DNA of 51,039 nucleotides from Treponema sp. Lineage in GTDB: Bacteria > Spirochaetota > Spirochaetia > Treponematales > Treponemataceae. The translations under genes and the position numbers were made by a program. Position 1 is the stretch's first letter. Each line of letters begins with the position of its first letter. The stretch spans positions 1 through 51,039 of the forward strand of contig JAILHD010000104.1 in the NCBI GenBank assembly GCA_024696155.1, in the 5' to 3' direction. Positions 13,050-45,274 of the stretch are shown here, one piece after another. Under the pieces are notes generated by a model. The model saw only the letters and a program-made list of their open reading frames with translations. It searched no databases and was not told where the DNA came from.

Positions 13050-13759
13050 TCTTCAAAAGCTTTTACAATTGCTTCTCCGCTTGAAGTTCCAATGCGGTTT
13101 GCACCAGCTTTAATCATATCCAAAGCAGATTCTGCACTTCTTACACCACCAGAAGCCTTTACTCCCATATCGTTTCCAACAGTTTTACGCATAAGAGCAA
13201 CATGAGCTGCAGTTGCACCGTTTGGAAGAAGTTTTCCGTCCTTATCTTTAAGGATTGCAAAACCTGTAGAAGTCTTAACAAAATCTGCACCAGCTTTTTT
13301 AGCACAAAGACAGCAGTTTTCAATCATTTTGTCGTCAAGATAGCAGGTTTCAAGAATTACTTTTACACAGATATGTTTGCCAAGTTTTTTACCTTCTGCC
13401 TTAGCAGCATCAACAACAGCAGCAATATCTGCTCCAACTTCTGAATAACGACCGTCTACAGCAGCACCAACATTGATAACCATATCAACTTCGGTAGCAC
13501 CTTTCTGAACGCAAACAGCGGCTTCGTAAGCCTTAACTTCTGAGGGTGTAGCACCAAGAGGAAATCCAACTACAGTACAAACATTTACAGAGGAACCTTC
13601 CAAAAGTTTTGCAGCAAGTGAAACGTAACTTGGATTAATACAAACTGATGCAAAACTGTACTCCTTTGCCTCTGCACAAAGTTTTTCAATCTGAGAAACA
13701 GTTGCCTGCGGTGCAAGCAATGTGTGATCAATATAAGATGATATTTCGTGTTTATTCAT
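13046..13759 (-). CDS. deoC: Deoxyribose-phosphate aldolase
   Basis: Cleaves 2-deoxyribose 5-phosphate to glyceraldehyde 3-phosphate and acetaldehyde in deoxynucleoside use. The class I TIM barrel is intact at 237 aa. The Schiff-base lysine is Lys162 in [11 protein letters not shown], the second lysine is Lys201 in [10 protein letters not shown], and Asp92 lies in ATEVDMVIN. Other deo genes are absent nearby. The gene lacks a Shine-Dalgarno: a perfect TATAAT ends exactly 6 nt before its ATG, so the mRNA is probably leaderless. Confidence 0.95.
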
Positions 13760-13765
13760 AATTCT

Positions 13766-13771
13766 ATTATA
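13766..13771 (-). promoter_or_regulatory. -10 box of a leaderless deoC promoter
   Basis: TATAAT on the minus strand, 6 nt from the deoC ATG at 13759. The -35 region is poor (TTTATT at a 17-bp spacing). Confidence 0.6.
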
Positions 13772-13781
13772 TAGAAAACGG

Positions 13782-13810
13782 TTGCCGAAATAAAGTTCTT
13801 AAGGTATATT
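13782..13810 (+). promoter_or_regulatory. Promoter of the ferredoxin gene
   Basis: TTGCCG at 13782-13787, a 17-bp spacer, and TATATT at 13805-13810, divergent from the deoC promoter. The predicted leader (about 13817-13861) holds AACTTG at 13819-13824 pairing with CAAGTT at 13839-13844, then a short U run. It could be a weak attenuator hairpin. Confidence 0.7.
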
Positions 13811-13861
13811 TATTGGAGAACTTGTCTGGCAAAATCACCAAGTTTTTATAGGAGCAAAACT

Positions 13862-14032
13862 ATGGCATTCAAAATTAACGACAGTTGTGTAAACTGCGGT
13901 ACATGCGAACCAGATTGTCCAGTTGGAGCAATTTCAGAAAGCGGAGACAAAAGAGTAATTGACGCAAATGCTTGCATCAGTTGCGGAACTTGCGCTGCTG
14001 AATGTCCAGCAGAAGCAATTGTAGAAGAGTAA
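13862..14032 (+). CDS. 2[4Fe-4S] ferredoxin, 56 aa
   Basis: A small clostridial-type ferredoxin. It has two CxxCxxCxxxCP clusters, with cysteines 9, 12, 15, 19 and 38, 41, 44, 48, so each of the two cubanes is complete. The two halves are internally similar (CVNCGTCEPDCP and CISCGTCAAECP). It would carry low-potential electrons for anaerobic oxidoreductases such as pyruvate:ferredoxin oxidoreductase or hydrogenase, none of which is encoded here. GGAG lies 8 nt before the ATG. It is a single-gene unit with its own promoter and terminator, which suits a highly expressed protein. Confidence 0.96.
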   Translation: MAFKINDSCVNCGTCEPDCPVGAISESGDKRVIDANACISCGTCAAECPAEAIVEE

Positions 14033-14052
14033 TTTCGTTTTTCGATTTTACC

Positions 14053-14093
14053 AAAAGACAGGTTCTCTGGCAGGAATCTGTCTTTTTTATTTT
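14053..14093 (+). terminator. Terminator of the ferredoxin gene
   Basis: AAAGACAG at 14054-14061 pairs with CTGTCTTT at 14078-14085 and runs into a T-rich tract. Loop of 16 nt. Confidence 0.8.
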
Positions 14094-14122
14094 AAAAACA
14101 TAAGTTATTATTTATATAAACG

Positions 14123-15094
14123 ATGAATAAAAAGTTTCTTCTTGCTGTAATCTTTTCAATTTCTTCTCTTTGGGCACAAAGCAAAATAAAGCCGGTAATA
14201 ATAGAAAAAAATACACTTCCTCAGCTAGACAGTCTTCAGGCATATTTATATATAGAAGACGGTGAATCAAAAAAACAGATAAAAAACGAACAGTTCAATC
14301 AGTACACTACAATTGTAGAAGACAACAGCAAAGCTGTTATGGCAGGCCGTGAACCAGAATTTCTTTTTTTTAAGTACAAGGTTGCAGAAAGATTTACGGT
14401 GCTGGAACTTTGCGCCCGCTGCAATATTAATTACGACACAATAATCACGCTTAATTCAATTGCCAGTAAAGATGATGTAATTAAAGGCGAAACTCTTATT
14501 ATTCCAACCGTTCAGGGACTTTTTATCCCGCTTGATAAATGCCACAACGCAATAGAAACACTTTTACAGCAAAATTATAAAAATCAAAACTTAACAAATC
14601 CAATCTTATACTTTACAATTGAAGGACGAAGTTTTGTATTTTTGCAGGGCAAAAGGCTTAGTCCAACAGAACGGGCCTTTTATCTTGATTCCAGTTTGAG
14701 ACTGCCGCTGGATGAAAATTCTTTTTATGTATCTTCTGAGTTTGGTTCCCGAAAGAATCCTCTTTCAGGTCAGATTAAAAATCACAATGGAATTGACCTT
14801 GCAGCCGAAGAAGGAACTCCTGTCTATGCCGTAAAAGACGGAGATGTGGCTTATACTGTTAGTAACGACCCCACATTCGGGAACTACATCATTTTGAGCC
14901 ATGATTTGGGAAAACAAAGCAGTGTTTACGCCCATCTTTCCAAAATCTTTGTTGAACAGTACAGCTTTGTAAAAAAAGGAACAATCATCGGACTTGTGGG
15001 ACACACAGGAATGGCGACAGGGGATCATTTACACTTTGAAATCCGCAAGGGTGGAAAAGCCTTGAATCCGCGTGAAAAGTTAAATTTTAAATAG
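14123..15094 (+). CDS. Exported LysM and M23 peptidase-domain protein
   Basis: A 323-aa protein with a signal peptide ending near SLWAQS. A LysM-like domain spans about residues 84-130 (YKVAERFTVLELCARCNINYDTIITLNSI...GETLIIP). A full M23 (lysostaphin-type) domain follows from about 203. Its zinc ligands are His221 and Asp225 (HNGIDLA) and His304 (DHLHFE), with His302 and His271 (YAHLS) as catalytic positions. It should be an active peptidoglycan endopeptidase in the periplasm, or an amidase activator if inactive in vivo. No Shine-Dalgarno is visible, and TATTAT and TATAAA strings crowd the start. The PEGA protein follows 6 bp later. Confidence 0.9.
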   Translation: MNKKFLLAVIFSISSLWAQSKIKPVIIEKNTLPQLDSLQAYLYIEDGESKKQIKNEQFNQYTTIVEDNSKAVMAGREPEFLFFKYKVAERFTVLELCARCNINYDTIITLNSIASKDDVIKGETLIIPTVQGLFIPLDKCHNAIETLLQQNYKNQNLTNPILYFTIEGRSFVFLQGKRLSPTERAFYLDSSLRLPLDENSFYVSSEFGSRKNPLSGQIKNHNGIDLAAEEGTPVYAVKDGDVAYTVSNDPTFGNYIILSHDLGKQSSVYAHLSKIFVEQYSFVKKGTIIGLVGHTGMATGDHLHFEIRKGGKALNPREKLNFK

Positions 15095-15100
15095 GATGTA

Positions 15101-16105: not shown

Positions 16106-16175
16106 ATTTTGCAAAATTCCTTAAAAATCCTTTTTTAAATTAAAGTTTTTGCCACTCATACCCGATATTATAAAT

Positions 16176-16257
16176 GTCGGGAACATTTTCCCCTCCCACC
16201 CATGTTCCCGACTGCCTGATTAAGGCATGGCGCAGATACATTCTGCGCCTTTTTTTT
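16176..16257 (+). ncRNA. Candidate small RNA: three hairpins, C-rich loop, own terminator
   Basis: The first hairpin is perfect: GTCGGGAACA at 16176-16185 pairs with TGTTCCCGAC at 16203-16212, around a 17-nt loop holding CCCCTCCCACCC. The second is TGCCT (16213-16217) with AGGCA (16223-16227). The third, GGCGCAG (16229-16235) with CTGCGCC (16243-16249), is followed by eight Ts. A TATTAT or TATAAA -10 lies just upstream at 16166-16174, so a transcript could begin at about 16178 and end near 16257. The C-rich loop could pair with Shine-Dalgarno sequences. The alternative is a double terminator for the PEGA gene. Confidence 0.5.
16229..16257 (+). terminator. Strong intrinsic terminator before the PBP1A gene
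   Basis: A 7-bp GC stem (GGCGCAG with CTGCGCC), a 7-nt loop and an 8-nt T run. It ends transcripts from the LysM/M23-PEGA pair and any small RNA starting near 16178. Confidence 0.88.
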
Positions 16258-16284
16258 GCCCTTTTCGTATATTCAAAAAAACTG

Positions 16285-16290
16285 TATAAT
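16285..16290 (+). promoter_or_regulatory. -10 box of the PBP1A promoter
   Basis: Perfect TATAAT ending 10 nt before the ATG at 16301, with no Shine-Dalgarno between. The leader is at most a few nucleotides. The best -35 at 17 bp spacing is TTTTCG, which is weak. Confidence 0.55.
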
Positions 16291-16300
16291 TTCTTCTATT

Positions 16301-18868: not shown

Positions 18869-18873
18869 GCTGA

Positions 18874-19281: not shown

Positions 19282-20143
19282 CTTCCAGCTCATTATTAAT
19301 TTCTTCTTCAAGTTTCCACGGGGCATTTAATACAAGCATTCCGCTACCATAAAGACGCGGCGGATTTTTTTCGCTCTGTTCGTATTCTTTTAGACTCATT
19401 TCCTTGTGACTGTCTTTTGAAGCTATCTCTAACCGCAAATCACAGATTTCTATGTTTGGATTTACAGAACGTGCAGAAGTCTGAATTTCATTGAGCATCT
19501 GATTGATTTCTGCTTCACGGTGGGCAAGGAGCGGATACCATAGCATTATGATTCCGTTTGTCCATTTTTTATTTACCGCACAGATAGTTTTAGCACAGTT
19601 TATGTAATCTGAAGTTTCTTCATAGCTTGGATCTATAAGAACAGCACCGCGTTTGGTTTTAGGTGGAGTAAGAGCTTTTAACATTTCAAAGCCGTTGCGA
19701 TTGTGAACCTGAACATTTTTGCAAAGGCCTTCAAATTCTGGGTGCAGCATATTTTTTTTAAGGTTATCTACTTCCTTTGGATGTAGTTCAGAGAGAACTA
19801 TAAAATCCTGTGCTCTGGAAAGCATTCGCGCAATTTCCGGCGAGCCTGGATAGAAGTTTTTGGAATAGTAACGGTCAATTAGAGAAAGATAATCGTTTAG
19901 GAGAGGATGCGAGCCGGAAATCATCTTCTTTGAAGAAATAAGACGGGAAATTCCCTTTGCAGCCTCGCTCGTTTTTTGACTGCGATTATCCAGAAGGTCG
20001 TAAAGGCCGCTCCCTGAGTGTGTATCAAAATAGGTGTACGGTTTTTCCTTTTTGTTCAGACTGGAAAGAACAAAAAAAAGTGTGAGATGTTTTAAAATGT
20101 CGGCATGGTTTCCAGCGTGAAAGATGTGCTGATAGCTTAACAT
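19226..20143 (-). CDS. rlmJ: 23S rRNA (adenine-N6)-methyltransferase RlmJ
   Basis: A 305-aa RlmJ family protein, which methylates A2030 of 23S rRNA in E. coli. The N terminus LSYQHIFHAGNHADILKHL is diagnostic, and THSGSGLYDL is the SAM-binding region. The catalytic motif reads DPSYE (Asp171 to Glu175) where E. coli has DPPY, a conservative change in this amino-methyltransferase motif class. The start overlaps the NAD synthase stop by 7 bp, so translation is probably coupled. The 3' end overlaps the convergent ParB-like gene. Confidence 0.92.
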   Translation of the reverse strand: MLSYQHIFHAGNHADILKHLTLFFVLSSLNKKEKPYTYFDTHSGSGLYDLLDNRSQKTSEAAKGISRLISSKKMISGSHPLLNDYLSLIDRYYSKNFYPGSPEIARMLSRAQDFIVLSELHPKEVDNLKKNMLHPEFEGLCKNVQVHNRNGFEMLKALTPPKTKRGAVLIDPSYEETSDYINCAKTICAVNKKWTNGIIMLWYPLLAHREAEINQMLNEIQTSARSVNPNIEICDLRLEIASKDSHKEMSLKEYEQSEKNPPRLYGSGMLVLNAPWKLEEEINNELEVISSFVSSTSQQSFGINA

Positions 20144-22137
20144 CGTTTGCCGCCTTTAAGTTCATCTTCAAGAACATCAATTTCTTTTAGCCAGATTGCA
20201 GCAGAAGCATCGCTAGGCATTCGCCAGTCACCGCGCGGAGAAAGATTGATTGTACCCACTTTTGCACCATCTGGCATGCACGAACGTTTGAACTGCTGGC
20301 TGAAAAAGCGGCGGTAGAAAGTACGCAGCCATTTGAGCATTGTTGCGTCGTCGTATGGAAGAGCGGCGTTTTTAGCAAGGAAGAATATTTTTTTTGGACT
20401 GAAGCCAAAACGCAAAAGATAATACAGATAAAAATCATGAAGCTCGTAAGGACCAACAAGATCTTCTGTTACCTGGCTGATTTTACCATTGGTTGGTGGA
20501 AGAAGTTCAGGGCTTACAGGGGTGTCCAAAATGTCTCGGAGTACGGCTGAGTAGGCATTATTACCAGTATTGGCTGCCTGCTCGCAGAACCATTCAACAA
20601 GATAGCGAACAAGGGTCTTTGGGACAGAAGAGTTTACACCGTACATCGACATGTGGTCGCCGTTATAAGTGCACCAGCCGAGTGCAAGTTCAGAAAGGTC
20701 TCCTGTACCGATTACGATTCCATTTGTTTTATTAGCGTAGTTCATAAGAACAAGAGTACGTGTACGAGCCTGTCCGTTTTCGTAAGTAACGTCGTGCATA
20801 TTTTCGTCCTGGCCAATATCCTTAAAATGCTGACGAACAGCGTCTGCAATAGGAATTTCTTTTAAAGTGGCACCGCACTCACGGGCAAGTTTGCAGGCAT
20901 TCTGGTATGTGCGGTCTGTTGTACCAAAACAAGGCATTGTAATTGCGGTAATTTTCTTATGATCGATTTTGCAAAGGTCAAAGGCACGGCAGGTTACTAG
21001 AAGTGCAAGCGTTGAATCAAGGCCTCCAGAAAGTCCGATAACAGCGGACTGACAGTTGATATGGCGGAGGCGTTTTGCAAGTCCCTGAGCCTGTAAGTTG
21101 ATTACCTGTTCACAGCGGAGGGTGCGGTTTGCTTTGTCAGAAGGCACAAATGGATGAGCGTCAACAAAACGTTTGAGAGTGCAATTTCCTTCTGCAAGCT
21201 CTAGAGCCTTATCATCCCCGCACAAATCAATTTCTACAGTTGTATAATCTGCAGCAAACGGCGCGTGATTTACAGAGAATCCAAAACTTGTAGTACGGCG
21301 TCGCTCCTGACAAAGACGCTCAATATCAATATCTGCATAAATAATTTCGTCATCGTAAAAAAGCTCAGACTGGGCAAGCATTGTACCGTTTTCGCAAATC
21401 ATTTTGTGACCTGCAAAAACCATATCCTGAGTTGATTCGTCTTTTCCTGCATTTGAATAAACATAAGCCGCAATCAACTTTGCACTGTGATTCTGAACAA
21501 GATTTCTGCGGTAATCAGCCTTGCCAATAATTTCGTTTCCTGCAGAAAGATTTACAATTACATTTGCACCATTCAGCACGTGGCGTGTAGAAGGTGGAAG
21601 CGGAGTCCAAAGGTCTTCGCAAATTTCACACGCAATTTTGAGTTCTGGATTATTTTTATCACAAATAAGAATGTCGGTTCCAAATGGAACGTCATCAAAG
21701 CCTGCAAAAGAAATAAAGCGTGTTTCCATATCAGGCTGGAACGGAGTGAACTGACGGCGCTCATAGAATTCACCATAATTTGGAAGAAAAGTCTTTGCAA
21801 TCAACGAAAGAAGTTTTCCACCATAAATGGCAGCAGCACAGTTATAAATGCCCTCTCCCACAGGTACAGGAAGTCCAACAAAAATAAGACTATCAAGAGC
21901 CGCAGTTTCTTTTATTATAGAACAAAGGGCCTTCTCTGCCCCATTCTGCAGCGATTTTTGAAAAAACAAATCACCACATGTATAACCTGTAATAGAAAGT
22001 TCAGGAAAAACAACAATTTTTGCACCACCAGCACAAGCTTCTTTAGCGGCCTTTATTATATTTTCTGCATTAGTGATGCAGTCCGCAACAACAAGACGAG
22101 GACTAACACATGCACTACGAATAAAACCAAAATTCAT
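20137..22137 (-). CDS. nadE: Glutamine-dependent NAD+ synthetase
   Basis: A 666-aa two-domain enzyme. The N-terminal nitrilase-fold glutaminase domain has the triad Glu46 (FPELSITGY), Lys115 (KTFLPNYGE) and Cys173 (CEICEDLW). The C-terminal synthetase domain has the ATP pyrophosphatase loop SGGLDSTLAL. It amidates deamido-NAD in the last step of NAD synthesis, using ammonia tunnelled from glutamine. Length fits the long form. There is no Shine-Dalgarno: TAAAAT ends exactly 6 nt before the ATG, which predicts a leaderless mRNA. Confidence 0.97.
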   Translation of the reverse strand: MNFGFIRSACVSPRLVVADCITNAENIIKAAKEACAGGAKIVVFPELSITGYTCGDLFFQKSLQNGAEKALCSIIKETAALDSLIFVGLPVPVGEGIYNCAAAIYGGKLLSLIAKTFLPNYGEFYERRQFTPFQPDMETRFISFAGFDDVPFGTDILICDKNNPELKIACEICEDLWTPLPPSTRHVLNGANVIVNLSAGNEIIGKADYRRNLVQNHSAKLIAAYVYSNAGKDESTQDMVFAGHKMICENGTMLAQSELFYDDEIIYADIDIERLCQERRRTTSFGFSVNHAPFAADYTTVEIDLCGDDKALELAEGNCTLKRFVDAHPFVPSDKANRTLRCEQVINLQAQGLAKRLRHINCQSAVIGLSGGLDSTLALLVTCRAFDLCKIDHKKITAITMPCFGTTDRTYQNACKLARECGATLKEIPIADAVRQHFKDIGQDENMHDVTYENGQARTRTLVLMNYANKTNGIVIGTGDLSELALGWCTYNGDHMSMYGVNSSVPKTLVRYLVEWFCEQAANTGNNAYSAVLRDILDTPVSPELLPPTNGKISQVTEDLVGPYELHDFYLYYLLRFGFSPKKIFFLAKNAALPYDDATMLKWLRTFYRRFFSQQFKRSCMPDGAKVGTINLSPRGDWRMPSDASAAIWLKEIDVLEDELKGGKRC

Positions 22138-22143
22138 AAGTGT

Positions 22144-22149
22144 ATTTTA
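22144..22149 (-). promoter_or_regulatory. -10 box of a leaderless nadE promoter
   Basis: TAAAAT on the minus strand with a 6-nt gap to the ATG at 22137; TTAATT lies at a 17-bp spacing as a weak -35. Confidence 0.55.
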
Positions 22150-22198
22150 TCATAAAATATGGGAAAAATTAAGTATGATAATTTTGGGTTAAAATTAA

Positions 22199-22227
22199 AA
22201 CTCCCGACTCGTAATGAATCGGGAGTT
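22199..22227 (-). terminator. Terminator of argG
   Basis: AACTCCCGA (22199-22207) pairs perfectly with TCGGGAGTT (22219-22227). On the minus strand it runs into TTTTAATTTT. A second small hairpin, GCCTTA with TAAGGC at 22250-22266, lies closer to the argG stop. Confidence 0.85.
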
Positions 22228-26109: not shown

Positions 26110-26138
26110 TTGTAAAGCCTTGCGATTTTTTGTATAAT
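26110..26138 (+). promoter_or_regulatory. Leaderless icd promoter
   Basis: TTGTAA at 26110-26115, a 17-bp spacer and perfect TATAAT at 26133-26138, 6 nt before the ATG at 26145. The expected start site falls on or next to that ATG. Confidence 0.75.
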
Positions 26139-26144: not shown

Positions 26145-27353
26145 ATGGCAAAAATTCAGATGAAAAATGCCATCGCAGAGCTCGATGGCGATGAAATGAC
26201 TCGTGTTTTATGGAAAGTGATTAAGGATGAACTTCTTACTCCCTTTGTAGACTTAAAGACAGAATACTACGATCTGGGCTTGAAAAGCCGCGATGATTCG
26301 GACGATAAAATCACTTACGAAGCTGCTGCAGCAATCAAACGCCTTCACGTTGGTGTAAAATGTGCCACAATCACATCAAATCAGGCACGCGTAGAAGAAT
26401 ATCATTTGAAGCAGCTCACACCGTCTCCAAACGGAATTATCCGCGCAGAACTTGACGGAACTGTATTCCGCGAGCCGATTTTTGTCAGCAACGTTCACGG
26501 AACTGTAAGCTGCTGGAAAAAGCCGATTGTTCTTGGCCGCCACGCATACGGTGACGTTTACAAAAATACAGAAATCAAAACTCCTTGTGCAGGAAAAGCT
26601 GAACTTGTTTTTACAGGTGCAGACGGAAAAGAAATCCGCAAATTGATTAAAGACATGCCGGGACCTGGAATCATTCAGGGAATCCACAACCTTGATGACT
26701 CAATCGAAAGCTTTGCCCGCTGTTGTCTTACATACGCACTTGACCGCAAAATCAGCGTTTGGTTTGGCGCAAAAGATACAATCTCTAAAACTTACGACGG
26801 AAACTTTAAGGCAATCTTCAACCGCGTTTACGAGGAAGAATTCAAAGCTAAATTTGAAGCTGCCGGAATCGAATACTTCTACACTCTGATTGATGACGCT
26901 GTAGCCCGCGTTATGAGAAGCGAAGGCGGATTCATGTGGGCAACAAAGAACTACGACGGCGACGTTATGAGCGACATGATTGCTTCTGCCTGCGGTTCAC
27001 TTGCAATGATGACATCAGTTCTTGTCAGCCCGGACGGAAACTTTGAATACGAAGCTTCGCACGGAACTGTTCAGAAGCACTATTACCGCTACCTTAAGGG
27101 TGAAAAAACTTCTACAAACCCTGTTGCTACAATTTTTGCCTGGACAGGTGCCCTTACAAAACGCGGCGAAATGGACGGAACTCCAGAACTCGTAGACTTT
27201 GCTAAAAAGCTTGAAAAAGCCACACTTGGCACAATCGAAGAAGGCTACATGACAGGCGACATTGCCCGTATCGCAGAGCCAGCTGCAAAGAAAGTTCTCA
27301 ATTCATGGGAATACATTGCGGCAATCCGTGAAAGACTTGAAAAACTTTTGTAA
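26145..27353 (+). CDS. icd: Isocitrate dehydrogenase (NADP), dimeric eukaryote-like type
   Basis: A 402-aa protein of the dimeric (type II) isocitrate dehydrogenase class common in eukaryotes and some bacteria, seen in LDGDEMTRVLWKVIKD, ATITSNQARVEEYHLKQLTPSPNGIIRAELDGTVFREPI and the C-terminal EASHGTVQKHYYRYLKGEKTSTNPVATIFAW. It makes 2-oxoglutarate and NADPH. I use the internal start giving MAKIQMKNAIAELDGDEMT; the ATG 15 nt upstream overlaps the -10 box and is unlikely to be translated. No other TCA-cycle gene lies nearby. A strong terminator follows. Confidence 0.96.
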   Translation: MAKIQMKNAIAELDGDEMTRVLWKVIKDELLTPFVDLKTEYYDLGLKSRDDSDDKITYEAAAAIKRLHVGVKCATITSNQARVEEYHLKQLTPSPNGIIRAELDGTVFREPIFVSNVHGTVSCWKKPIVLGRHAYGDVYKNTEIKTPCAGKAELVFTGADGKEIRKLIKDMPGPGIIQGIHNLDDSIESFARCCLTYALDRKISVWFGAKDTISKTYDGNFKAIFNRVYEEEFKAKFEAAGIEYFYTLIDDAVARVMRSEGGFMWATKNYDGDVMSDMIASACGSLAMMTSVLVSPDGNFEYEASHGTVQKHYYRYLKGEKTSTNPVATIFAWTGALTKRGEMDGTPELVDFAKKLEKATLGTIEEGYMTGDIARIAEPAAKKVLNSWEYIAAIRERLEKLL

Positions 27354-29176: not shown

Positions 29177-29182
29177 TATAAT
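29177..29182 (+). promoter_or_regulatory. -10 box of a leaderless promoter (pentapeptide protein)
   Basis: Perfect TATAAT with a 6-nt gap to the ATG at 29189 and no Shine-Dalgarno. The -35 region is poor. Confidence 0.6.
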
Positions 29183-29188: not shown

Positions 29189-29872
29189 ATGTTCACAATC
29201 AACAAATGCCTTGTAAGCAACTGTTCAGAAGATGCACTTTCATCATTTGACGAATTCGGAAACATAAAAACAGAACGCGGGTACTGCATAGACCATACAC
29301 CAGACCCTGGACGCTCTCAAACAGAAATTTACAACTACATTAAAAATCACGAAAAAATCATAGGATTAAACGCCTGCGGAATTATTTTTAAAGACATAGA
29401 TTTTTCAAATAAAAAATTTTTTGGCTGTAATTTTTCTCACTGTACCTTCCAGAACATCAAGTGGGAGCACAGCCTTGTCCGCATTTCTATCTTTGACTTT
29501 GCATTTTTTAACGACTGCAATTTTATTCAGAGTAATACAATTTTTACAAGCTTTGCCTGCTGTACCTTTAGCTCAACCATTTTTAATTCCAGCGATATGA
29601 AGCAGTGTAATTTAAACGGCACAAAAGCCTATCAGTGTTCTTTTGACAATTCAGACTTCTTTAGTTCTCGTTTTATAAAGGCAACACTTGTAAACACCTC
29701 TTTCAGAAACTGTAATCTTAAAAAGACAATCTTTAATAAATCAGACAGACAGAATGTTTCTTTTAAGATGTCAAATACGCGGGAAGCTATTTTTGACACA
29801 CCAGATAACATAATAGGCTCTGGAGAAATTGACAGCCTTCAATTTGGTAACGCAATAGTGGACGGTGATTAA
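29189..29872 (+). CDS. Pentapeptide-repeat protein
   Basis: A 227-aa protein. Residues 1-70 form a small cysteine-containing start (NKCLVSNCSEDALSSF). From about 75 to 205 the sequence follows the A(D/N)LXX-type repeat, here with many Phe and Cys at the centre positions: FKDIDFSNKKFFGCNFSHCTF, FNSSDMKQCNLNGTKAYQCSF, FFSSRFIKATLVNTSFRNCNL. This predicts a right-handed beta-helix. The function is unknown; some family members mimic DNA and protect gyrase, but there is no evidence for that here. The next gene starts at the base after its stop codon, so the two are coupled. Confidence 0.82.
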   Translation: MFTINKCLVSNCSEDALSSFDEFGNIKTERGYCIDHTPDPGRSQTEIYNYIKNHEKIIGLNACGIIFKDIDFSNKKFFGCNFSHCTFQNIKWEHSLVRISIFDFAFFNDCNFIQSNTIFTSFACCTFSSTIFNSSDMKQCNLNGTKAYQCSFDNSDFFSSRFIKATLVNTSFRNCNLKKTIFNKSDRQNVSFKMSNTREAIFDTPDNIIGSGEIDSLQFGNAIVDGD

Positions 29873-30430
29873 ATGAAAGTATACTACCATCATAACCAAG
29901 GCGGATTTTCTAACTGCTATATTGTTGTAAACGAGGCGGTAAAAGAAGCCATTATAATAGATCCGGGCAAAGTAACAGACGAAATCATTTCTCAAATAGA
30001 AGATAACAGACTTTCAATTTCAGGAATTCTGATTACTCATAACCATGGCAGCCATGTTCACGGGCTTAAGACACTGCAAAAAATCTATTCTCCAAAGATT
30101 TTTGCAGCCGACTGGGAAGTTGCAGGTGACGCTACAACCGTACTTTCTAACGATGGCCACATAAGAATTGCAAAACTAACCGTACAGTACATGACAGTTC
30201 CTGGACATACTTCAGATTCAATGGTTTATAAAATAGAAAACGTACTTTTTACAGGAGACGTTTTGGGAGCAGGCAGCATTGGATCTACAAACTCCAGCTA
30301 TTCCAAATTCATTCTTGAATCAAACATTAAAAATAAAATATATACAATGGATGACCAGACAGTAATTATGCCGGGGCACGGACCGCTTTCAACACTTGGC
30401 GCATTAAAAGCGCTTATGGATGAGTTTTAA
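29873..30430 (+). CDS. Metallo-beta-lactamase-fold hydrolase, glyoxalase II-like, with altered metal motif
   Basis: A 185-aa MBL-fold protein. The usual THxHxDH motif reads THNHGSH, so Ser60 replaces the aspartate that normally binds the second metal. The other ligands look normal: His56, His58, His61, PGHTSDSMVY, FTGDVLG and MPGHGPLSTLG. It may bind one metal, or use a different second site. It has no Shine-Dalgarno and starts immediately after the pentapeptide gene, so translation probably depends on that gene. Its stop overlaps the end of the convergent metallopeptidase-like gene. Confidence 0.82.
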   Translation: MKVYYHHNQGGFSNCYIVVNEAVKEAIIIDPGKVTDEIISQIEDNRLSISGILITHNHGSHVHGLKTLQKIYSPKIFAADWEVAGDATTVLSNDGHIRIAKLTVQYMTVPGHTSDSMVYKIENVLFTGDVLGAGSIGSTNSSYSKFILESNIKNKIYTMDDQTVIMPGHGPLSTLGALKALMDEF

Positions 30431-32352
30431 TATCTTCTTACAATAGAAATATTTCCGCAAACGATTCCGTAGCGGTCAAAAACAAAATCATTCATCATAC
30501 CAGCTGCGTCTTCAAAAGCCGCTGCATTATTCTGCCGTATATAAGCACATAGATACGGAGTTGCAGCCATTACAGTTCCGCGGTTGGCAAGATGAACAAA
30601 ATATTTTGAAACTTCCGTAATAGGCTGCTGCATAATATATGCCATAAATTCGTTGTGCATAAGATATTCATCGCTGATGTCATAGCCCAAAGAAGGCTGC
30701 GAGCGGAAGTAATCAATTAAAAACTGGCGAGAATCATAATCAATAGTGCCATAAACAGCTGCAACAAAGTTTCTGAACTCTTCATCGCGGAAGAAGATTG
30801 TATGCCAGCCTTCGTGTGCCAAAAGATTATAACGGCTCCAGTTTGGAGTTTCGCGGCTAACAGAAACCAGTCCGCCTTCATTAGCACGAACATATTTTCC
30901 ATCTACTTCAAAAAATCCGTTTACAATCAGAATCTTTTTCAAAAGTTCTTCTTCATAATTAAGGCGGAAGTTTAAATCTGTTGCTGCATTAAAGAACTTA
31001 GCCATACTCTGAGCGCTGTAATCGTGGGCATTGTAACCGTGCATGCCGCTAAGCTCTTCGTTAGACATTAGACGACCTTTATAGCCTTCTTTTTCTACAA
31101 AGTATGCAAGGCGGGTAAAGAACTTATCCTGAACCTCGTAATTACGGGTATCAAAGAATAAAATACGGTCAAATCTGTCCCATTCAAAAATCTCATAATC
31201 AGCAGTACGCCATTTTAAAACATCGTATTCTAGAATAAAGCCTGGATCAGTTGGAACAGGCACCAGTACTTCGCCAGAATTAACAGAAATATTGTTAGAA
31301 GCAATAAAATCAGATTTTTTAAAGGCACTCTCAGAAACCTTCATATACATAGAAGAAACGCACATCTTGTTAGAAGTAAGCGTCATTCTGCTGCAAGGAT
31401 TTTTTAATGCCGCAATCGGAATAATCACCTTATTTGCAGTAGGCGCATTGTTAATGTAAAGGCGTTCGCCACCAGCATTAAGTTCAACAGTTACCTTTTC
31501 TTCCAGCGTAGACTTAAATTTTGGAACATCGTAAAGCCCAACGCATACTTCAGGAAGCGGATTCTGCACATTCTTCATATTATAAATGGTAGCCGCATTA
31601 GAAAAATCAAAGCTGGAATTAGAAGTGTCAATTTTTCCGCCACTGTAAGCAAAACCATAACGCGGAATAGATGTACTAACATCAAAACCAAGCATTGCGT
31701 CAGTTACACATGCAGCAACAATCCGTGTTCGCAAAGTAGAAAAAATAAAAAAGCCGTGCGGAATATTTCCACTATCAAAACTATTTTTATTAAGCGCAAT
31801 AGAAACATCAAAAACATCAGGCAGATTTTTTACATTCGCCTGAGCTACAAGCCGGTTTCCACCGCCATAAACCTGCGAAATAAATTTCCCCTTTGAATTA
31901 AAATCTTCGTCTGTAAGAAAGCCTACCTGCAGAGGAAGGTCTACAGCATTTGCAAAAATCTGTTTCTGACGGCTGGTAGGTAAAATTTTTACGCGCACCA
32001 TAACCGCCGCACTTCCGTAACGGTCAAAACTTTCATAGATTTTTTCTTTCTGAGCCTTAGAAAACATAAAGCTTGCGTATTTTGCCTGCTTTATCCAGCC
32101 TTTGTGCGCAGCACCATCCAAAGCCACAAGGTCTGTAGAAGATTTATCGTAAGTAAATTCAAGTTTTACAGGAGTTGCAGTGCCAAAAGTAAAAAAGAAC
32201 CACAAAAAGAACAGATCAAAAAGCACAAATGCAACAATTCCAACCGTAAAATACTGCATATTGCGCGGAAGCCGTTTAAACCATCGAGCCGATTTTTTTA
32301 CAGGAATATAAACGCCCTTAAAAGCTGACTTAAAAATATTCTTTCCACCCAT
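30427..32352 (-). CDS. Membrane-anchored protein with HEGWH metallopeptidase-like motif
   Basis: A 641-aa protein with a basic N terminus and one membrane segment at about 34-57 (FTVGIVAFVLFDLFFLWFFF); the rest should be outside the cytoplasm. Residues 60-400 are beta-rich and unrecognised. Residues about 420-600 are helical and contain HEGWH at 513-517, an HExxH zinc-protease motif. Glu568 (HNEFMAYIM) about 50 residues later is a candidate third ligand. I do not know the family. No Shine-Dalgarno is present; TAAAAT ends 6 nt before the ATG. Confidence 0.7.
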   Translation of the reverse strand: MGGKNIFKSAFKGVYIPVKKSARWFKRLPRNMQYFTVGIVAFVLFDLFFLWFFFTFGTATPVKLEFTYDKSSTDLVALDGAAHKGWIKQAKYASFMFSKAQKEKIYESFDRYGSAAVMVRVKILPTSRQKQIFANAVDLPLQVGFLTDEDFNSKGKFISQVYGGGNRLVAQANVKNLPDVFDVSIALNKNSFDSGNIPHGFFIFSTLRTRIVAACVTDAMLGFDVSTSIPRYGFAYSGGKIDTSNSSFDFSNAATIYNMKNVQNPLPEVCVGLYDVPKFKSTLEEKVTVELNAGGERLYINNAPTANKVIIPIAALKNPCSRMTLTSNKMCVSSMYMKVSESAFKKSDFIASNNISVNSGEVLVPVPTDPGFILEYDVLKWRTADYEIFEWDRFDRILFFDTRNYEVQDKFFTRLAYFVEKEGYKGRLMSNEELSGMHGYNAHDYSAQSMAKFFNAATDLNFRLNYEEELLKKILIVNGFFEVDGKYVRANEGGLVSVSRETPNWSRYNLLAHEGWHTIFFRDEEFRNFVAAVYGTIDYDSRQFLIDYFRSQPSLGYDISDEYLMHNEFMAYIMQQPITEVSKYFVHLANRGTVMAATPYLCAYIRQNNAAAFEDAAGMMNDFVFDRYGIVCGNISIVRRY

Positions 32353-32358
32353 ATCCCT

Positions 32359-32364
32359 ATTTTA
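32359..32364 (-). promoter_or_regulatory. -10 box of a leaderless promoter (HEGWH protein)
   Basis: TAAAAT on the minus strand with a 6-nt gap to the ATG at 32352. It is one half of a back-to-back pair with the box at 32384-32389. Confidence 0.55.
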
Positions 32365-32389
32365 CCAAATATTACAAAAAGTTTATACT
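32361..32389 (+). promoter_or_regulatory. Leaderless promoter of the 173-aa protein gene
   Basis: TTTACC at 32361-32366, a 17-bp spacer and TATACT at 32384-32389, 6 nt before the ATG at 32396. It overlaps the divergent promoter. Confidence 0.6.
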
Positions 32390-32395
32390 GATTCC

Positions 32396-32917
32396 ATGCT
32401 CGTAATAATCCCAAATCCAAACCAGACAACAGAGCTTATCCGCATGCAAAAGGAGTTCATTAAAAAAGCAAACTCCGCTCCTCTTCCCCACCCCGTTTTT
32501 TACCAGAACGCCCCGCTTTGGATTTTTATAGAAGAAAACAATTCTTTTACGCGCGATTTTTCAAAAGATGAGCTAAAGAAATTTTCTGCAGAGCTTACAA
32601 AAGTAGAATTAGATTCCTCACAAGTTTATTTTTCTAAAAACTTGCAGCAAATAGTTTTAGGCATTCATTCACGTATAAGCACCACAAAAATCACTTTGCA
32701 GGGCGAATTAGTTCTCTGCCAGACTGCAACGGTCGTAAACGGCACATCAACTTCCGAATGCATAGAACCATTGCTTAATCTCTGCAAAACAGAGATTCCT
32801 GGGGGACCTTCAAAAAGTTTTCCTTTGCAGCTAAAAGTTTTCCGCGTTGCAAACGCCGTAAAGCCAGATTCCCACAGTTTTGCAGTTACAGACTTTGTCT
32901 GGAAGAAATTTAAATAA
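32396..32917 (+). CDS. Unknown 173-aa protein
   Basis: No family recognised. It is a soluble alpha/beta protein without signal peptide or membrane segments, starting MLVIIPNPNQTTELIRMQKEF and ending in a basic DFVWKKFK. It has paired strand-like stretches (KITLQGELVLCQT, FPLQLKVFRVANAV). It is divergent from the HEGWH membrane protein, from which it is separated by 43 bp, and is followed by a strong terminator, so it is a single-gene unit with its own promoter. Confidence 0.65.
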   Translation: MLVIIPNPNQTTELIRMQKEFIKKANSAPLPHPVFYQNAPLWIFIEENNSFTRDFSKDELKKFSAELTKVELDSSQVYFSKNLQQIVLGIHSRISTTKITLQGELVLCQTATVVNGTSTSECIEPLLNLCKTEIPGGPSKSFPLQLKVFRVANAVKPDSHSFAVTDFVWKKFK

Positions 32918-37017: not shown

Positions 37018-37018
37018 A

Positions 37019-39082: not shown

Positions 39083-39094
39083 AATTCCAGCCCC

Positions 39095-40168: not shown

Positions 40169-40196
40169 ATTTTTAAATTTTATTTGTAAAAAAAAT

Positions 40197-41879: not shown

Positions 41880-41928
41880 ACATACTCTCCCTAAATTTTA
41901 TTTACCTACTATTTTAAATCCCATCAGG

Positions 41929-43776
41929 CTATTTGTCTAGAAAAATCCAGTCTTTATTAATGCCGACTCTGTTATCATAATAAACATTTTCAAGATTCCA
42001 GCGGTTACGGATGGCATAAAAAGTCCGCGGACGCACAAGATAGATTACGGGGCACTGTTCCAGAATTATACTCTGGTATTCGTCCCAGATTTTTTTTGCT
42101 TCGACATGGTCAATGGTGTAAGAACCTTTTGCATAAAGTTCATCAATTCTGGCTTCCCATTCAGTTGCAGGCTCTTTCTGCAACGGATACCACACATGAA
42201 GATTTCCGTTACTAAGCCAGACATTAGGCCCCTGAGTTGGGAATGAAGCCGATCCAAAAAGGACTATAAAACTCTGCCAGTCAAAGGTTGACATAAGGCT
42301 TTCTACACCCTTTTGAAAGTCCACCTGGCGCACATTAATTTTTATTCCCATTTTTGCAGCTTCATCACTGATGATTTGTCCTATATCGCTTAAAACCGTA
42401 ACACCAGAATAAATAGAAAGATCAAATTCTAGTGGATTTCCATCCGAATCATACATGAGTCCATCTGCACCGCGTTTAATTCCAATAGAAGAAAGAAGTT
42501 TTTCTGCGCGCGCAAAATCATAGCGGTATTCAAGCTGGATTTTTTCGTTGTAGTAAGGATTTGTTGGCGGAAAGAAGAAATATCGCGGCTCCGCAAGGCC
42601 TCGATAAGTCTGATTGATGATTCGTTCGCGATTTAAGATGCAGCTCATAGCCTGGCGGAATTCTTTTTTTGTAAACCAGCGGTAAAAAGGTTCATCCTTA
42701 TGCACAGGATTCTGATTAAAAGTCCACATATAACTGGACATTGAACCTTCTGCATTAAAAACCGTATAGTCATCTTTCTGATTATTAACCACATCATGAA
42801 CCTCTTCAGGACGCAGAGATGTAGCCTCAGTTTTTCCCTGTCTAAAAAGCAGAAAATCTGTATTCTGATCCCCAACAATCTGACATACAAGCTGTTCATA
42901 ATATGGAATGGAGTTTCCATTTTCGTCTTTTTCCCAGTAATAAGGATTACGGGTAAAAACAAGACGTCTGGAAGGAATATATTCTGTAATATAGAACATT
43001 CCGCATGAAGGAATAGTTTTTGGATCGCAGTCTACGCTAAAAAGTTTTTTAACAGCTGCAAGGCCACCTTTTTCTTTTGCAGGGCGATATATAAAAGAAG
43101 GACAGCAGCTAAGACTAACAGTAAGAATAGGATCTGCAACTACACGCGGAAAAATAAAATCAAAATTTTTATCATCAATTTTTACGCAGTCAATATGACT
43201 AAGAGAGCCGTCCGGCATTTCAACACACTGCCCTTCATAACCGCCAAAGCCTGCTTCGTCATCACCATCAATTTCGTTATACCAGAAAATAAAATCGTCA
43301 GAAGTAACGGGGATTTTTTTTTCAGAATTATAATAAGTCCAGAAAACGTCATCGCGAAGTTTACAATGAACAGTCAAAGTGCCAGTTTCTTCGTTTTCTT
43401 CAAGAGTATAAGATGCAAGATGAGAAGTCCACTCGCGATTTATTGGATTGTAATCAAATAAATAATCAACGGTTTTCCAGATAATTCCATAGCTCTGCCC
43501 ATCGGTATAGCCTAGAACCTGATTAAACGTCTTTGGATCATCAAGAATTGTATCGTTCCAGATGCCGCCTACCTTACCCGGCACATATTTTTCATTATTA
43601 TAGGGTTTAGAAACTGATTTTCTGATTAAATCGTAATCAACTGATTTTTGAAGAGTTTCAATTTCTGCAATATCCATTTCCAGAGTTTTTGTACAAGATA
43701 CAAGCAGAAAAACAATTCCACCTAAGGCCAGTGTAAAAAAAGTTTTAGCATTTTTTTTGATTTTTAATTTTGCCAT
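41929..43776 (-). CDS. oppA: Oligopeptide-binding lipoprotein OppA
   Basis: A 615-aa solute-binding protein of the peptide ABC (SBP_bac_5) class. The lipobox gives Cys28 (FLLVSC) as the anchor. Family features are GGIWNDTILDDPKTFNQVLG, the domain around SFIYRPAKEKGGLAAVKKLF, and FRQAMSCILNRERIINQ. It should deliver oligopeptides to the OppBCDF complex encoded just downstream. I start at the ATG giving MAKLKIKKNAK; TAAAAT ends 8 nt before it and no Shine-Dalgarno is present. Longer reading adds 18 residues with no signal-peptide logic. Confidence 0.93.
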   Translation of the reverse strand: MAKLKIKKNAKTFFTLALGGIVFLLVSCTKTLEMDIAEIETLQKSVDYDLIRKSVSKPYNNEKYVPGKVGGIWNDTILDDPKTFNQVLGYTDGQSYGIIWKTVDYLFDYNPINREWTSHLASYTLEENEETGTLTVHCKLRDDVFWTYYNSEKKIPVTSDDFIFWYNEIDGDDEAGFGGYEGQCVEMPDGSLSHIDCVKIDDKNFDFIFPRVVADPILTVSLSCCPSFIYRPAKEKGGLAAVKKLFSVDCDPKTIPSCGMFYITEYIPSRRLVFTRNPYYWEKDENGNSIPYYEQLVCQIVGDQNTDFLLFRQGKTEATSLRPEEVHDVVNNQKDDYTVFNAEGSMSSYMWTFNQNPVHKDEPFYRWFTKKEFRQAMSCILNRERIINQTYRGLAEPRYFFFPPTNPYYNEKIQLEYRYDFARAEKLLSSIGIKRGADGLMYDSDGNPLEFDLSIYSGVTVLSDIGQIISDEAAKMGIKINVRQVDFQKGVESLMSTFDWQSFIVLFGSASFPTQGPNVWLSNGNLHVWYPLQKEPATEWEARIDELYAKGSYTIDHVEAKKIWDEYQSIILEQCPVIYLVRPRTFYAIRNRWNLENVYYDNRVGINKDWIFLDK

Positions 43777-43821
43777 TTGAATATATTTTACAGGATAAAA
43801 GAGGGAATGAAAATAAAAAAA

Positions 43822-43870
43822 AGCTTCCAATCACTTAGAAGCTCTTTTTAGGTCGGGCAAACCGGATTCG
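43822..43870 (-). pseudogene. Copy of the tRNA-Pro 3' end and its terminator
   Basis: 49 bp identical to 44019-44067: the terminator hairpin (AGCTTC with GAAGCT) plus 21 nt from the 3' end of tRNA-Pro, from the discriminator base into the T-loop. The rest of the tRNA is missing; a 148-bp hairpin-rich segment follows instead. Confidence 0.85.
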
Positions 43871-44018
43871 GCTTACAGTCGCAAACTTCGTGTTTGCTCC
43901 TTCCAGCCCGCCTTCGTTCGCTGGCGGCAGCATCCATGCTGCCTTTTCGCCTGACGGCGCGCTCACTTCGTTTCGAATCCGTACAAATACATATAAGGCA
44001 AGGTTAAAAAAATAAAAG
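43871..44018. repeat. 148-bp hairpin-rich segment between tRNA-Pro 3'-end copies
   Basis: It contains GCAAAC with GTTTGC, CCAGC with GCTGG and GCAGCA with TGCTGC as successive hairpins. CGGATTCG at its left edge (43863-43870) is answered by CGAATCCG at 43974-43981, closing the set into one large stem. No reading frame of note is present. Confidence 0.65.
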
Positions 44019-44042
44019 AGCTTCCAATCACTTAGAAGCTCT
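44006..44042 (-). terminator. Terminator of tRNA-Pro
   Basis: GAGCTTC (44018-44024) pairs with GAAGCTC (44035-44041). On the minus strand the stem is followed by a T-rich run. It is repeated with the tRNA 3' end at 43822. Confidence 0.85.
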
Positions 44043-44049
44043 TTTTAGG

Positions 44050-44122
44050 TCGGGCAAACCGGATTCGAACCAGCGACCTCAACGTCCCGAACGTCGCGCG
44101 CTACCAACTGCGCTATTGCCCG
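44050..44122 (-). tRNA. tRNA-Pro (CGG)
   Basis: A 73-nt cloverleaf. The acceptor pairs CGGGCAA with TTGCCCG, including the C1-G72 pair typical of bacterial tRNA-Pro, with A73. The D-arm is GCGC-AGTTGGTA-GCGC. The anticodon loop TTCGGGA gives CGG, reading CCG codons. The T-loop is TTCGAAT. CCA is not encoded. A terminator-like hairpin abuts its 5' end at 44123-44145. Confidence 0.95.
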
Positions 44123-44145
44123 AAAAAATTGCGAAGCAATTTTTT
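44123..44145. repeat. Perfect A/T-tailed hairpin abutting the 5' end of tRNA-Pro
   Basis: AAAAAATTGC, a 3-nt loop, GCAATTTTTT. It has the shape of an intrinsic terminator in both directions yet sits directly before the mature tRNA 5' end. A second copy of the same context occurs at 44396-44415. Confidence 0.7.
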
Positions 44146-44150
44146 CTTAC

Positions 44151-44182
44151 GAATAGTGCTCGCTTCGCTGCGCGCTATTCGC
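44151..44182. repeat. Imperfect 10-bp hairpin upstream of tRNA-Pro
   Basis: CGAATAGTGC and GCGCTATTCG pair with one G-T wobble around a 12-nt loop. It is part of the palindrome field between the two tRNA genes. Nothing else is recognisable in 44183-44246. Confidence 0.6.
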
Positions 44183-44271
44183 GGTATATGTAGCTTCCAA
44201 GAGGGAAGTGTAATATAAAAGTTTAAGACGGTCGCTGGAAGCGGCATCAACGTCCCGAACCTGTAAATAGC

Positions 44272-44313
44272 AAATCCGTTAAAAAACGAGCCGTGAGGGT
44301 CGTTTTAGGATTT
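44272..44313 (+). repeat. Palindromic repeat family A, copy 2 (inside the tRNA-Pro relic)
   Basis: The arms AAATCCGTTAAAAAA and GTTTTAGGATTT match those of the element at 1290-1334 in reverse orientation. The centre (ACGA...TCGT around GCCGTGAGGG) differs. It interrupts the anticodon region of the relic. Confidence 0.75.
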
Positions 44314-44336
44314 ACCTGCAAACATCGCGCTACCAA

Positions 44337-44380
44337 TGCAGACGTCATACGTCTGCAACAAGTTTTGCATTGCAAAACTT
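44337..44380. repeat. Double perfect hairpin inserted in the D-loop of the tRNA-Pro relic
   Basis: TGCAGACGT-CAT-ACGTCTGCA (44337-44357) and AAGTTTTGCA-T-TGCAAAACTT (44360-44380): two perfect stems of 9 and 10 bp in 44 bp. Confidence 0.75.
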
Positions 44381-44451
44381 GCGCGCTATTGCCCGAAAAA
44401 ATTGCGAAGCAATTTCTTTCCTTGCTATTTCACACCAAAAAAGGTGCTCAT

Positions 44452-44483
44452 AAAAGAAAAAGCCTTCCGAATCGGAAGGCTTT
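44452..44483 (-). terminator. Terminator of tRNA-Asp
   Basis: AAGCCTTCCGA pairs with TCGGAAGGCTT (44460-44482); on the minus strand it is followed by TTTTCTTTT. Confidence 0.9.
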
Positions 44484-44485
44484 AG

Positions 44486-44559
44486 CGCGAGTGACGGGGC
44501 TCGAACCCGTGATCTCCGGCGTGACAGGCCAGCGCGATAACCAGCTTCGCTACACCCGC
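44486..44559 (-). tRNA. tRNA-Asp (GTC)
   Basis: A 74-nt cloverleaf. The acceptor pairs GCGGGTG with CACTCGC, with one G-T pair and G73, the aspartate identity base. The anticodon loop CTGTCAC gives GTC. T-loop TTCGAGC. CCA is not encoded. It has a near-consensus promoter immediately upstream and a strong terminator, so it is its own unit. Confidence 0.96.
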
Positions 44560-44571
44560 GTGATGTTTAAT

Positions 44572-44600
44572 AATATATACTCTTCACTTATTTTGGTCAA
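44572..44600 (-). promoter_or_regulatory. Promoter of tRNA-Asp
   Basis: On the minus strand, TTGACC (44600-44595), a 17-bp spacer and TATATT (44577-44572), with the start expected about 6 nt before the mature tRNA. Confidence 0.8.
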
Positions 44601-44662
44601 TAGGTTAAATCATAAATTTTGAAAAAAAGTTAAAATTTTTTCAAAAAAATTTTCTTTAGTTG

Positions 44663-44671
44663 TGTTATACT
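44663..44671 (+). promoter_or_regulatory. Extended -10 of a leaderless recX promoter
   Basis: TGT followed by TATACT (44666-44671): an extended -10 with a 6-nt gap to the ATG at 44678. There is no Shine-Dalgarno and the -35 region is A-rich without a match, which extended -10 promoters tolerate. Confidence 0.65.
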
Positions 44672-44677
44672 ATCCTC

Positions 44678-45274
44678 ATGAAAATCACAAAGTTTGAACC
44701 TACATCATCAGGACTTTGCCGCATCACGCCTGATGAAGGAGCCATATTCTATATAAGAAAAGAATACATTCCAAACATAGATTTTGATTCCATCTATGCA
44801 GGCGCAGAGTTCAACGAAGAACAAACTTCCGAACTTCTGGATGCCGGACTTGCAGCCGTAGTAGAACTTAAAGCAATCACATACCTTGCCCGCTGCGAAC
44901 AGTGCAGATTCAAACTTACAAACAAGCTGATTCAAAAAGGCTACGAAAAACAATACATTCAGATAGCACTAGATTTTCTAGAAAGCGTGAACCTTTTAAG
45001 CGATTCCCGCTATGCCACCGCCTGGCTTAACAGCAGAAAAACAAATCACTACGAAGGACGCACAAAACTTTCCGCAGAACTCGCTGCCCGCGGAATCAGC
45101 CGCGAAGTTGCCGCCGCTGCCCTTGATGAATTTTTTACAGAAAACGACGAAGAAGAAATCTGTCGCAAAGCCGTAGAAAAGCTTAGCCGTACAAAATCAG
45201 GAGATAAATTAAAGGCGGCATTAATAAACGCGGGTTTTTCTTACAAAGTATTTAATTACCTATTGACAAAGTAG
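44678..45274 (+). CDS. recX: Regulatory protein RecX
   Basis: A 198-aa RecX family protein, which binds and restrains RecA filaments. Repeated three-helix units carry the family pattern: ITYLARCEQCRFKLTNKLIQKGY, ALDFLESVNLLSDSRYATAWLNSRK, GRTKLSAELAARGISREVAAAAL and SGDKLKAALINAGFSYKVFNYLL. I start at the ATG giving MKITKFEPTSSG, since an ATG 18 nt upstream would overlap the -10 box. It stands alone, 41 kb from recA, with its own promoter, so recA and recX are not co-transcribed. Confidence 0.9.
   Translation: MKITKFEPTSSGLCRITPDEGAIFYIRKEYIPNIDFDSIYAGAEFNEEQTSELLDAGLAAVVELKAITYLARCEQCRFKLTNKLIQKGYEKQYIQIALDFLESVNLLSDSRYATAWLNSRKTNHYEGRTKLSAELAARGISREVAAAALDEFFTENDEEEICRKAVEKLSRTKSGDKLKAALINAGFSYKVFNYLLTK

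Follow-up and report, generated by a model that had tools for sequence, protein, structure and literature searches.

In a 51,039-nucleotide (nt) stretch of a Treponema sp. genome (contig JAILHD010000104.1 of assembly GCA_024696155.1, 2.40 Mb in 181 contigs), hereafter the window, seven genes on both strands carry a TATAAT-like -10 hexamer that ends exactly 6 nt before the start codon. We propose that such hexamers, at gaps of 6 or 7 nt between their last base and the start codon, are sigma70 promoters whose transcription start (+1) falls on the start codon, so that these genes would be expressed from leaderless mRNAs, side by side with genes led by a Shine-Dalgarno (SD) sequence. We put the probability of this reading at about 0.86. 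Its basis is the hexamer itself, a sharp-edged peak in its distance to the start codon, the lack of SD sequences, -35 and TGn elements in register with it, and a preference for the same gap among orthologs. According to the proposed mechanism, a TATAAT-like -10 box, often TGn-extended and accompanied by a weak -35 TTG, ends 6-7 nt 5' of the start codon, and transcription would likely begin at the A of the ATG, a 5' end predicted from the roughly 7 nt that usually separate -10 and +1. The leaderless mRNA would be read without SD pairing, with ribosomes (probably 70S with formylmethionyl-tRNA) starting directly on the 5' AUG.

The features in question are listed below; gene names were tested against Pfam and NCBIfam.

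13766..13771, minus strand: -10 hexamer TATAAT, 6 nt 5' of the deoC ATG (13759), read directly in the DNA
13046..13759, minus strand: deoC, deoxyribose-phosphate aldolase (TIGR00126, 8.9e-75)
22144..22149, minus strand: -10 hexamer TAAAAT with TGn extension (TGATAAAAT), 6 nt 5' of the nadE ATG (22137)
20137..22137, minus strand: nadE, NAD+ synthase with a nitrilase-type domain (NF002730, 6.9e-259; Pfam NAD_synthase and CN_hydrolase)
26133..26138, plus strand: -10 hexamer TATAAT, 6 nt 5' of the icd ATG (26145); a TG directly abuts the hexamer and is therefore not a TGn
26145..27353, plus strand: icd, NADP-dependent isocitrate dehydrogenase (NF006156, 2.8e-186, aligned from residue 1)
29177..29182, plus strand: -10 hexamer TATAAT, 6 nt 5' of the pentapeptide-repeat gene ATG (29189)
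29189..29872, plus strand: pentapeptide-repeat protein gene (PF13599, 3.9e-12)
32359..32364, minus strand: -10 hexamer TAAAAT, 6 nt 5' of the HEGWH gene ATG (32352)
30427..32352, minus strand: HEGWH protein gene, 641 amino acids (aa), no Pfam or NCBIfam family matched
32384..32389, plus strand: -10 hexamer TATACT, 6 nt 5' of the 173-aa gene ATG (32396)
32396..32917, plus strand: 173-aa protein gene, no Pfam or NCBIfam family matched, homologues in the genus likewise placed divergently
32353..32395, no strand assigned: intergenic stretch of 43 base pairs (bp) with two predicted back-to-back leaderless promoters, 19 bp between the -10 boxes
44666..44671, plus strand: -10 hexamer TATACT, 6 nt 5' of the recX ATG (44678)
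44678..45274, plus strand: recX (Pfam RecX_HTH1 and RecX_HTH2)
46848..46853, plus strand: -10 hexamer TAGAAT, a candidate absent from the original prediction, 6 nt 5' of a putative TTG start (46860) of a DUF2804 gene

We read the DNA 5' of the seven named genes and tabulated 47 starts in the window, some of them alternatives for the same gene; GGAG, AGGA, GAGG or AAGG within -20 to -4 was counted as an SD word. The original prediction had singled out deoC, nadE, icd, the pentapeptide-repeat gene, the HEGWH gene, the 173-aa gene and recX as sharing the 6-nt gap and lacking an SD sequence, and both statements held throughout, with the hexamer at gap 6 in 7/7 and an SD word in 0/7. When the candidate TTG at 46860 was counted, an SD word was found in 0/8 of the gap-6 starts of the window. 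This TTG is a possible leaderless start, unusual if real. Five more genes had been described as fitting with gaps of 7 to 10, which is correct for oppA (8), rpe (9) and the PBP1A gene (10), weak for hisH with a TATTTT at 10 before a GTG, and wrong for oppB, where neither possible start (40360 or 40060) has a TAnnnT within 15 nt. As for the genes named as SD-led, SD words do precede argG, cysK, recA, the gene with the GreA domain and the gene at 46771, although for the last, labelled "ferredoxin", no Pfam family was matched.

The gap-6 peak recurred outside the window. Our sample comprised about 689 kb of this genome without the window, plus two genomes of the same genus, G001 and G004, at about 393-400 kb apiece, yielding 1109 starts (502 from this genome, 302 and 305 from the other two). 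Starts were called by a simple, purpose-written codon-usage caller that is blind to upstream DNA, so that the choice of starts was unable to create a peak, and those less than 80 nt from the end of a stretch were dropped before counting. The strict hexamer, defined as TATAAT with at most one mismatch and with T1, A2 and T6 fixed, occurred at gaps 0 to 10 in 14, 10, 9, 3, 5, 3, 44, 26, 11, 12 and 9 starts, against a background of 10.04 per gap, averaged across gaps 12-60. The 44/1109 at gap 6 gave P 2.5e-15 and the 26 at gap 7 P 1.9e-5, and gap 6 was significant in each genome separately (18/502, P 1.6e-6, in this genome; 11/302, P 8.4e-5, and 15/305, P 4.0e-7, in the others). Counts jump from 3 to 44 between gaps 5 and 6, as they should if the transcription start must not fall downstream of the ATG. 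In 200 dinucleotide shuffles the gap-6 count averaged 7.65 and reached at most 15, the highest count at any gap from 0 to 15 being 21, while ATGs internal to genes (n=22,652) gave a flat distribution with 3.9 per 1109 at gap 6. The comparison of the distance distribution with shuffled sequence had been set beforehand, and its outcome, a peak at gap 6 with a sharp lower edge and above all 200 shuffles, agrees with the original prediction. The gap is less fixed than that prediction had it, since gap 7 is enriched too and icd orthologs have the hexamer at 9 in 6/11 cases.

A motif-free search that included the window showed TATAAT to be the hexamer most over-represented at gap 6 (17 vs 1.9); the other leading words were mostly SD words, with TAAAAT and TAGAAT also among the top. 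A raw genome-wide scan for TATAATN{0,20}ATG, with 730 matches vs 608 in the reversed control, was discarded as too noisy without gene starts. Within the window itself, 5/40 called starts were at gap 6 vs 0.35 expected, the caller having missed the pentapeptide-repeat and 173-aa genes. A box ending 6 or 7 bases 5' of the start codon precedes about 1/20 of the genes in the sampled genome, and the excess over background at gaps 6-9, as a share of starts, came to 4.5% in this genome with the window left out, 3.2% in G001, 6.7% in G004 and -1.3% in E. coli. The predicted leaderless class would accordingly comprise roughly 3-7% of genes.

The gap-6 genes differ from the others in their upstream signals. 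SD words precede 2/44 gap-6 genes vs 585/1039 genes without the hexamer at gap 6 or 7 (P 6.7e-13), as anticipated from the claim that two start modes coexist. A TGn was present at 22/49 gap-6 hexamers vs 37/350 hexamers at gaps 12-44 (P 3.5e-8), and a TTG at -35..-33 in 8/49 gap-6 starts vs 38/1109 (P 4e-4), where the 49 include the 5 window starts. The TTG begins at -36 in 5/49 and at -35 in 8/49, and in at most 2 at any other position from -44 to -25. With TGn and TTG in register, the -35, the -10 and the start codon stand at standard sigma70 spacing, which would make the A of the ATG the +1. The start codons of gap-6 genes are ATG in 42/44 and GTG in 2/44. The assembly yielded no match to the 16S tail pattern GGATCACCTCCTTT, so that the anti-SD was not readable and SD use was deduced from SD words.

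The hexamer might instead be an A/U-rich translation signal in a longer leader, for example an S1-binding or Bacteroidota-like non-SD element, and no promoter at all. Non-SD translation signals of such type exist in other phyla, and the upstream regions are AT-rich, as this explanation would have it. However, apart from SD words the enrichment concerns TATAAT, TAAAAT and TAGAAT, all at a single distance and accompanied by TGn and TTG at promoter spacing, and gaps 0-5 show no excess. We therefore regard a translation signal as improbable, albeit the best placed of the alternatives to a promoter with its +1 on the start codon.

The pattern is found in relatives of the organism and is lacking in the more distant controls. 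RecA of the window, by its best-matching segments, is 82% identical to that of an uncultured Treponema and 80% to that of T. parvum, placing it beside Treponema. In E. coli, with the same caller, the strict hexamer occurred at gaps 6 and 7 in 0/127 starts. Among 15 named spirochaete loci, fetched for recA, gap 6 was seen in 8/185 starts vs 1.29 expected (P 6e-5), and in 2/690 starts vs 1.14 among the non-spirochaete loci from the same search (63/65; two shorter than 4 kb were skipped). Small samples from two other families of the order also showed an excess: G027 had the strict hexamer at gaps 6 and 7 together in 10/144 starts (P 2.7e-4; gap 6 alone, P 0.13), and G020, with 70% guanine plus cytosine, had any TAnnnT in 10/130 (P 1.2e-6). 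At three other spirochaete loci (L029:6990, L031:5547 and L032:11082) a TATAAT-like box at gap 6 or 7 precedes the first start called beyond recA; recX of the window lies about 41 kb from recA.

Orthologs within the genus were examined for six of the seven genes, the pentapeptide-repeat gene being excepted, across 17 genomes in one search and 12 in the others. This gave 68 rows, 49 of them with an alignable N-terminus; the 19 that were dropped belong to the HEGWH (10) and 173-aa (9) genes, and two fragmentary cases, nadE of G016 (two fragments) and icd of G002 (without N-terminus), had been left out beforehand. By eye, the N-terminal fragment of nadE in G016 has no gap-6 hexamer. Among the 49 usable starts, the hexamer was at gap 6 in 15 vs 0.49 expected per gap, at gap 7 in 3 and at gap 9 in 7. 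For deoC (n=12), the strict hexamer was at gap 6 in 5 and at gap 7 in 1, with an SD word in 4 and neither in 2. For nadE (n=11), it was at gap 6 in 5, at gap 7 in 1 and missing in 5, one of which has TAAACT at 6. For icd (n=11), there was one at gap 6, six at gap 9 and four with an SD word. The six gap-9 icd orthologs (L172-L176, L181) have TATAAT or TATACT, and ATT (4) or ACT (2) stands between the 6-nt gap and the ATG, so that a leader of about three bases is predicted. For recX (n=12), the counts were 2 at gap 6 (3 with any TAnnnT), 1 at gap 7, 1 at gap 9 and 8 with none of these. Orthologs of a single gene, as with icd and deoC, can thus fall on either side of the predicted division between the two modes within one genus.

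Beyond these sets, icd of G024, from another family, has TATACT at gap 6, and icd of G018 and G021 does not have the hexamer there. Six icd genes from named records have their N-terminus; T. parvum has TATAAT at 8 nt, an uncultured Treponema has it at 9 nt, and the remaining four appear SD-led by eye. With the nearest relative, G004, 55 reciprocal pairs could be compared, and the gap-6/7 motif was present in both members of 4 pairs and in one member only of 0; one of the four is the window HEGWH gene and the other three lie on a single stretch. The same assembly as the window also contains a second, partial NadE-like match (L147, G000:C151:6169-6642; 70% identity over residues 1-158), which may be a second copy or stem from a foreign contig in the bin.

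The orthologs also bear on the second alternative, in which the promoters are real and the ATG is mis-assigned, translation beginning at a later codon behind an ordinary leader. In most relatives, homology does not pin down the HEGWH and 173-aa starts (19/22 rows dropped), and TTG 46860 is a putative start, which leaves some room for it. On the other hand, alignments begin at residue 1 in 11/11 icd and 11/12 deoC orthologs of the genus, and NF006156 aligns from residue 1 of icd. We consider a later start marginally less probable still than a translation signal. Chance in AT-rich DNA, singled out by a reader of one window, draws on the window being richer than the sampled remainder of the genome (5/40 vs 18/502, P 0.02), a density to be expected of a stretch chosen because a reader noticed the pattern, and is already refuted for the class by the recurrence of the peak in the 1109 starts without the window, above every shuffle, although a single gene could still match by chance.

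Several observations weigh against the leaderless reading and temper its strength. About a quarter of the gap-6 hexamers are expected by chance (10/44), and the loose TAnnnT gives a weaker pooled peak, with 66 vs 32.9 at gap 6 and a non-significant 41 at gap 7. The starts rest on a simple self-made codon-based caller. The enrichment of gap 6 among the orthologs has P 1e-17 under independence of the rows, which are in fact not independent. In 7/12 recX orthologs there is no such hexamer near the start. Of 36 pairs compared with the more distant G001, 4 had the motif in one member only and 0 in both; the initiation mode predicted from sequence thus agrees with that of the nearest relative and diverges at larger distance. 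A pyrimidine at -1 occurs in 36/44 gap-6 genes vs 174/301 SD-less first genes, and we rejected it as a mark of the +1, for it is equally high at gap 7 (21/26) and at gaps 8-10 (26/32). Taken with these points, the leaderless-promoter interpretation of the original prediction is well supported by the sequence.

The HEGWH and 173-aa genes form a divergent pair in which the 43 bp between the two ATGs consist of 6 bp, a hexamer, 19 bp, a hexamer and 6 bp. A homologue search with the HEGWH protein gave 832 proteins at E <= 0.001, and some of the best 120 are named Treponema sp. JC4 or T. bryantii; among these 120, the last 302 residues are 88% identical to a Treponema sp. JC4 protein and 73-74% to T. 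bryantii. We took the most upstream in-frame ATG as the HEGWH start, and for the partner the nearest ATG with an open reading frame (ORF) of at least 80 aa. A divergent ORF lies beside the HEGWH homologue in 11/12 genomes of the genus, this one included; only G006 lacks one. In 8/11 pairs, the window pair counted, the intergenic length is 43-46 bp; the exceptions are G004 with 86 bp (where the gap is 6 on either side), G008 with 58 bp and G001 with 62 bp. TAnnnT is at gap 6 in 8/11 and at gap 7 in 2 on the side of the divergent gene, and at 6-8 in 9/11 on the HEGWH side, where G005 has no hexamer. In G008 about 20 nt separate a TATACT box from the called ATG, and the gap-7 hexamer there is a different one. 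By eye, the two -10 boxes are 19 or 21 bp apart across pairs. Identity to the window copies within the genus is 35-74% for the HEGWH protein and 22-45% for the 173-aa partner.

If both hexamers are promoters, two polymerases could hardly occupy the pair simultaneously. A tentative extension, which we think rather unlikely as it stands, is that the 43-46 bp module is a leaderless either-or switch, in which each ATG would be its own +1, each -35 would lie on or beside the -10 of the other gene, the polymerases would be mutually exclusive, no leader would be left for regulation, and the arrangement would have been kept in the genus despite the divergence of the proteins. The bidirectional promoters of E. 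coli, as described in the accessible portion of PMC12825309, are alike in that divergent promoters are packed so that binding of one polymerase precludes that of the other; according to the same portion, they have a common -10, with starts mostly 18 and also 10 or 23 bp apart. The HEGWH pair is unlike this type: its -10 boxes are separate, with 19 or 21 bp between them, its starts are predicted to lie about 44-47 bp from each other, and both genes are predicted to be leaderless; in the window no -10 is shared, the boxes being 19 bp apart (32359-32389) and the predicted starts 44 bp apart. Three other divergent pairs (L108:13169-13217, L248:14340-14388 and L276:1960-2007) show a spacing of 46-47 bp, TAnnnT at 6-8 on each side and, by eye, 21 bp between the boxes. 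We make no claim of a general pile-up of divergent pairs at 43-47 bp, as besides the HEGWH pair these three are the only ones within 60 bp that have hexamers at 6-8 on each side, too few for such a claim.

Leaderless initiation with an adjacent -10 is already a known kind of initiation in Deinococcus and some other bacteria. The part of Zheng 2011 (PMC3160421) available to us reports computed leaderless genes, with TANNNT about 12 bp upstream, in 207/953 bacterial genomes, including 6/18 Spirochaetes with an average of 3.9% (1.8-6.9%). The genes described here resemble that set in having the same signal at the same place (the first T at -12 for gap 6), no SD and a comparable gene share (3-7% here). 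The main text, as far as it was accessible, does not contain the word "Treponema"; the present analysis adds gene-by-gene conservation and differences in predicted mode within one genus. For Deinococcus-Thermus, the section of PMC12340547 at hand describes an ORF-adjacent -10 motif, located about 6-7 bp 5' of the ORF in nearly a third of D. radiodurans genes, as opposed to about 1/20 here. As here, the gap is mostly 6-7 bp, the motif is kept in homologues and an SD class exists alongside, to judge from that section; by the section headings, promoter activity was tested there, whereas here it is predicted from sequence.

Within the phylum of Treponema, differential RNA sequencing (dRNA-seq) of Leptospira interrogans mapped leaderless starts directly; the excerpt of PMC5243855 that we had gives a start exactly on the start codon for 184 (30 C) and 170 (37 C) genes and a start at most 10 bp from the start codon for 430-450 genes. 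It identifies, in that excerpt, no promoter motifs save sigma54 elements, whereas the -10, TGn and -35 are visible here. Literature searches, one of them combining "leaderless" and "Treponema", showed among the titles listed none on leaderless mRNA in treponemes, with most subscription journals uncovered, so that earlier reports may exist; PMC9200625, where "leaderless" occurs 8 times, deals to judge from its title with antimicrobial peptides, PMC12687308 has "leaderless" only inside a reference title, and the word is absent from the accessible text of a Borrelia paper (PMC10319736). What the analysis contributes beyond this is the conservation within a genus, the orthologs that appear to differ in mode (icd, deoC) and the compact 43-46 bp divergent pair, seemingly leaderless on both sides.

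The sequence evidence, backed by controls, makes the case that leaderless initiation serves a definite minority of genes in these treponemes, alongside SD-led initiation. Programs that look for an SD when calling genes may put starts of this type in the wrong place. Since icd and deoC orthologs appear to differ in mode within the genus, they would provide natural pairs for studying how a gene passes from one of these modes to the other. The compact divergent pair would lend itself to testing how promoters interfere when leaders are absent.

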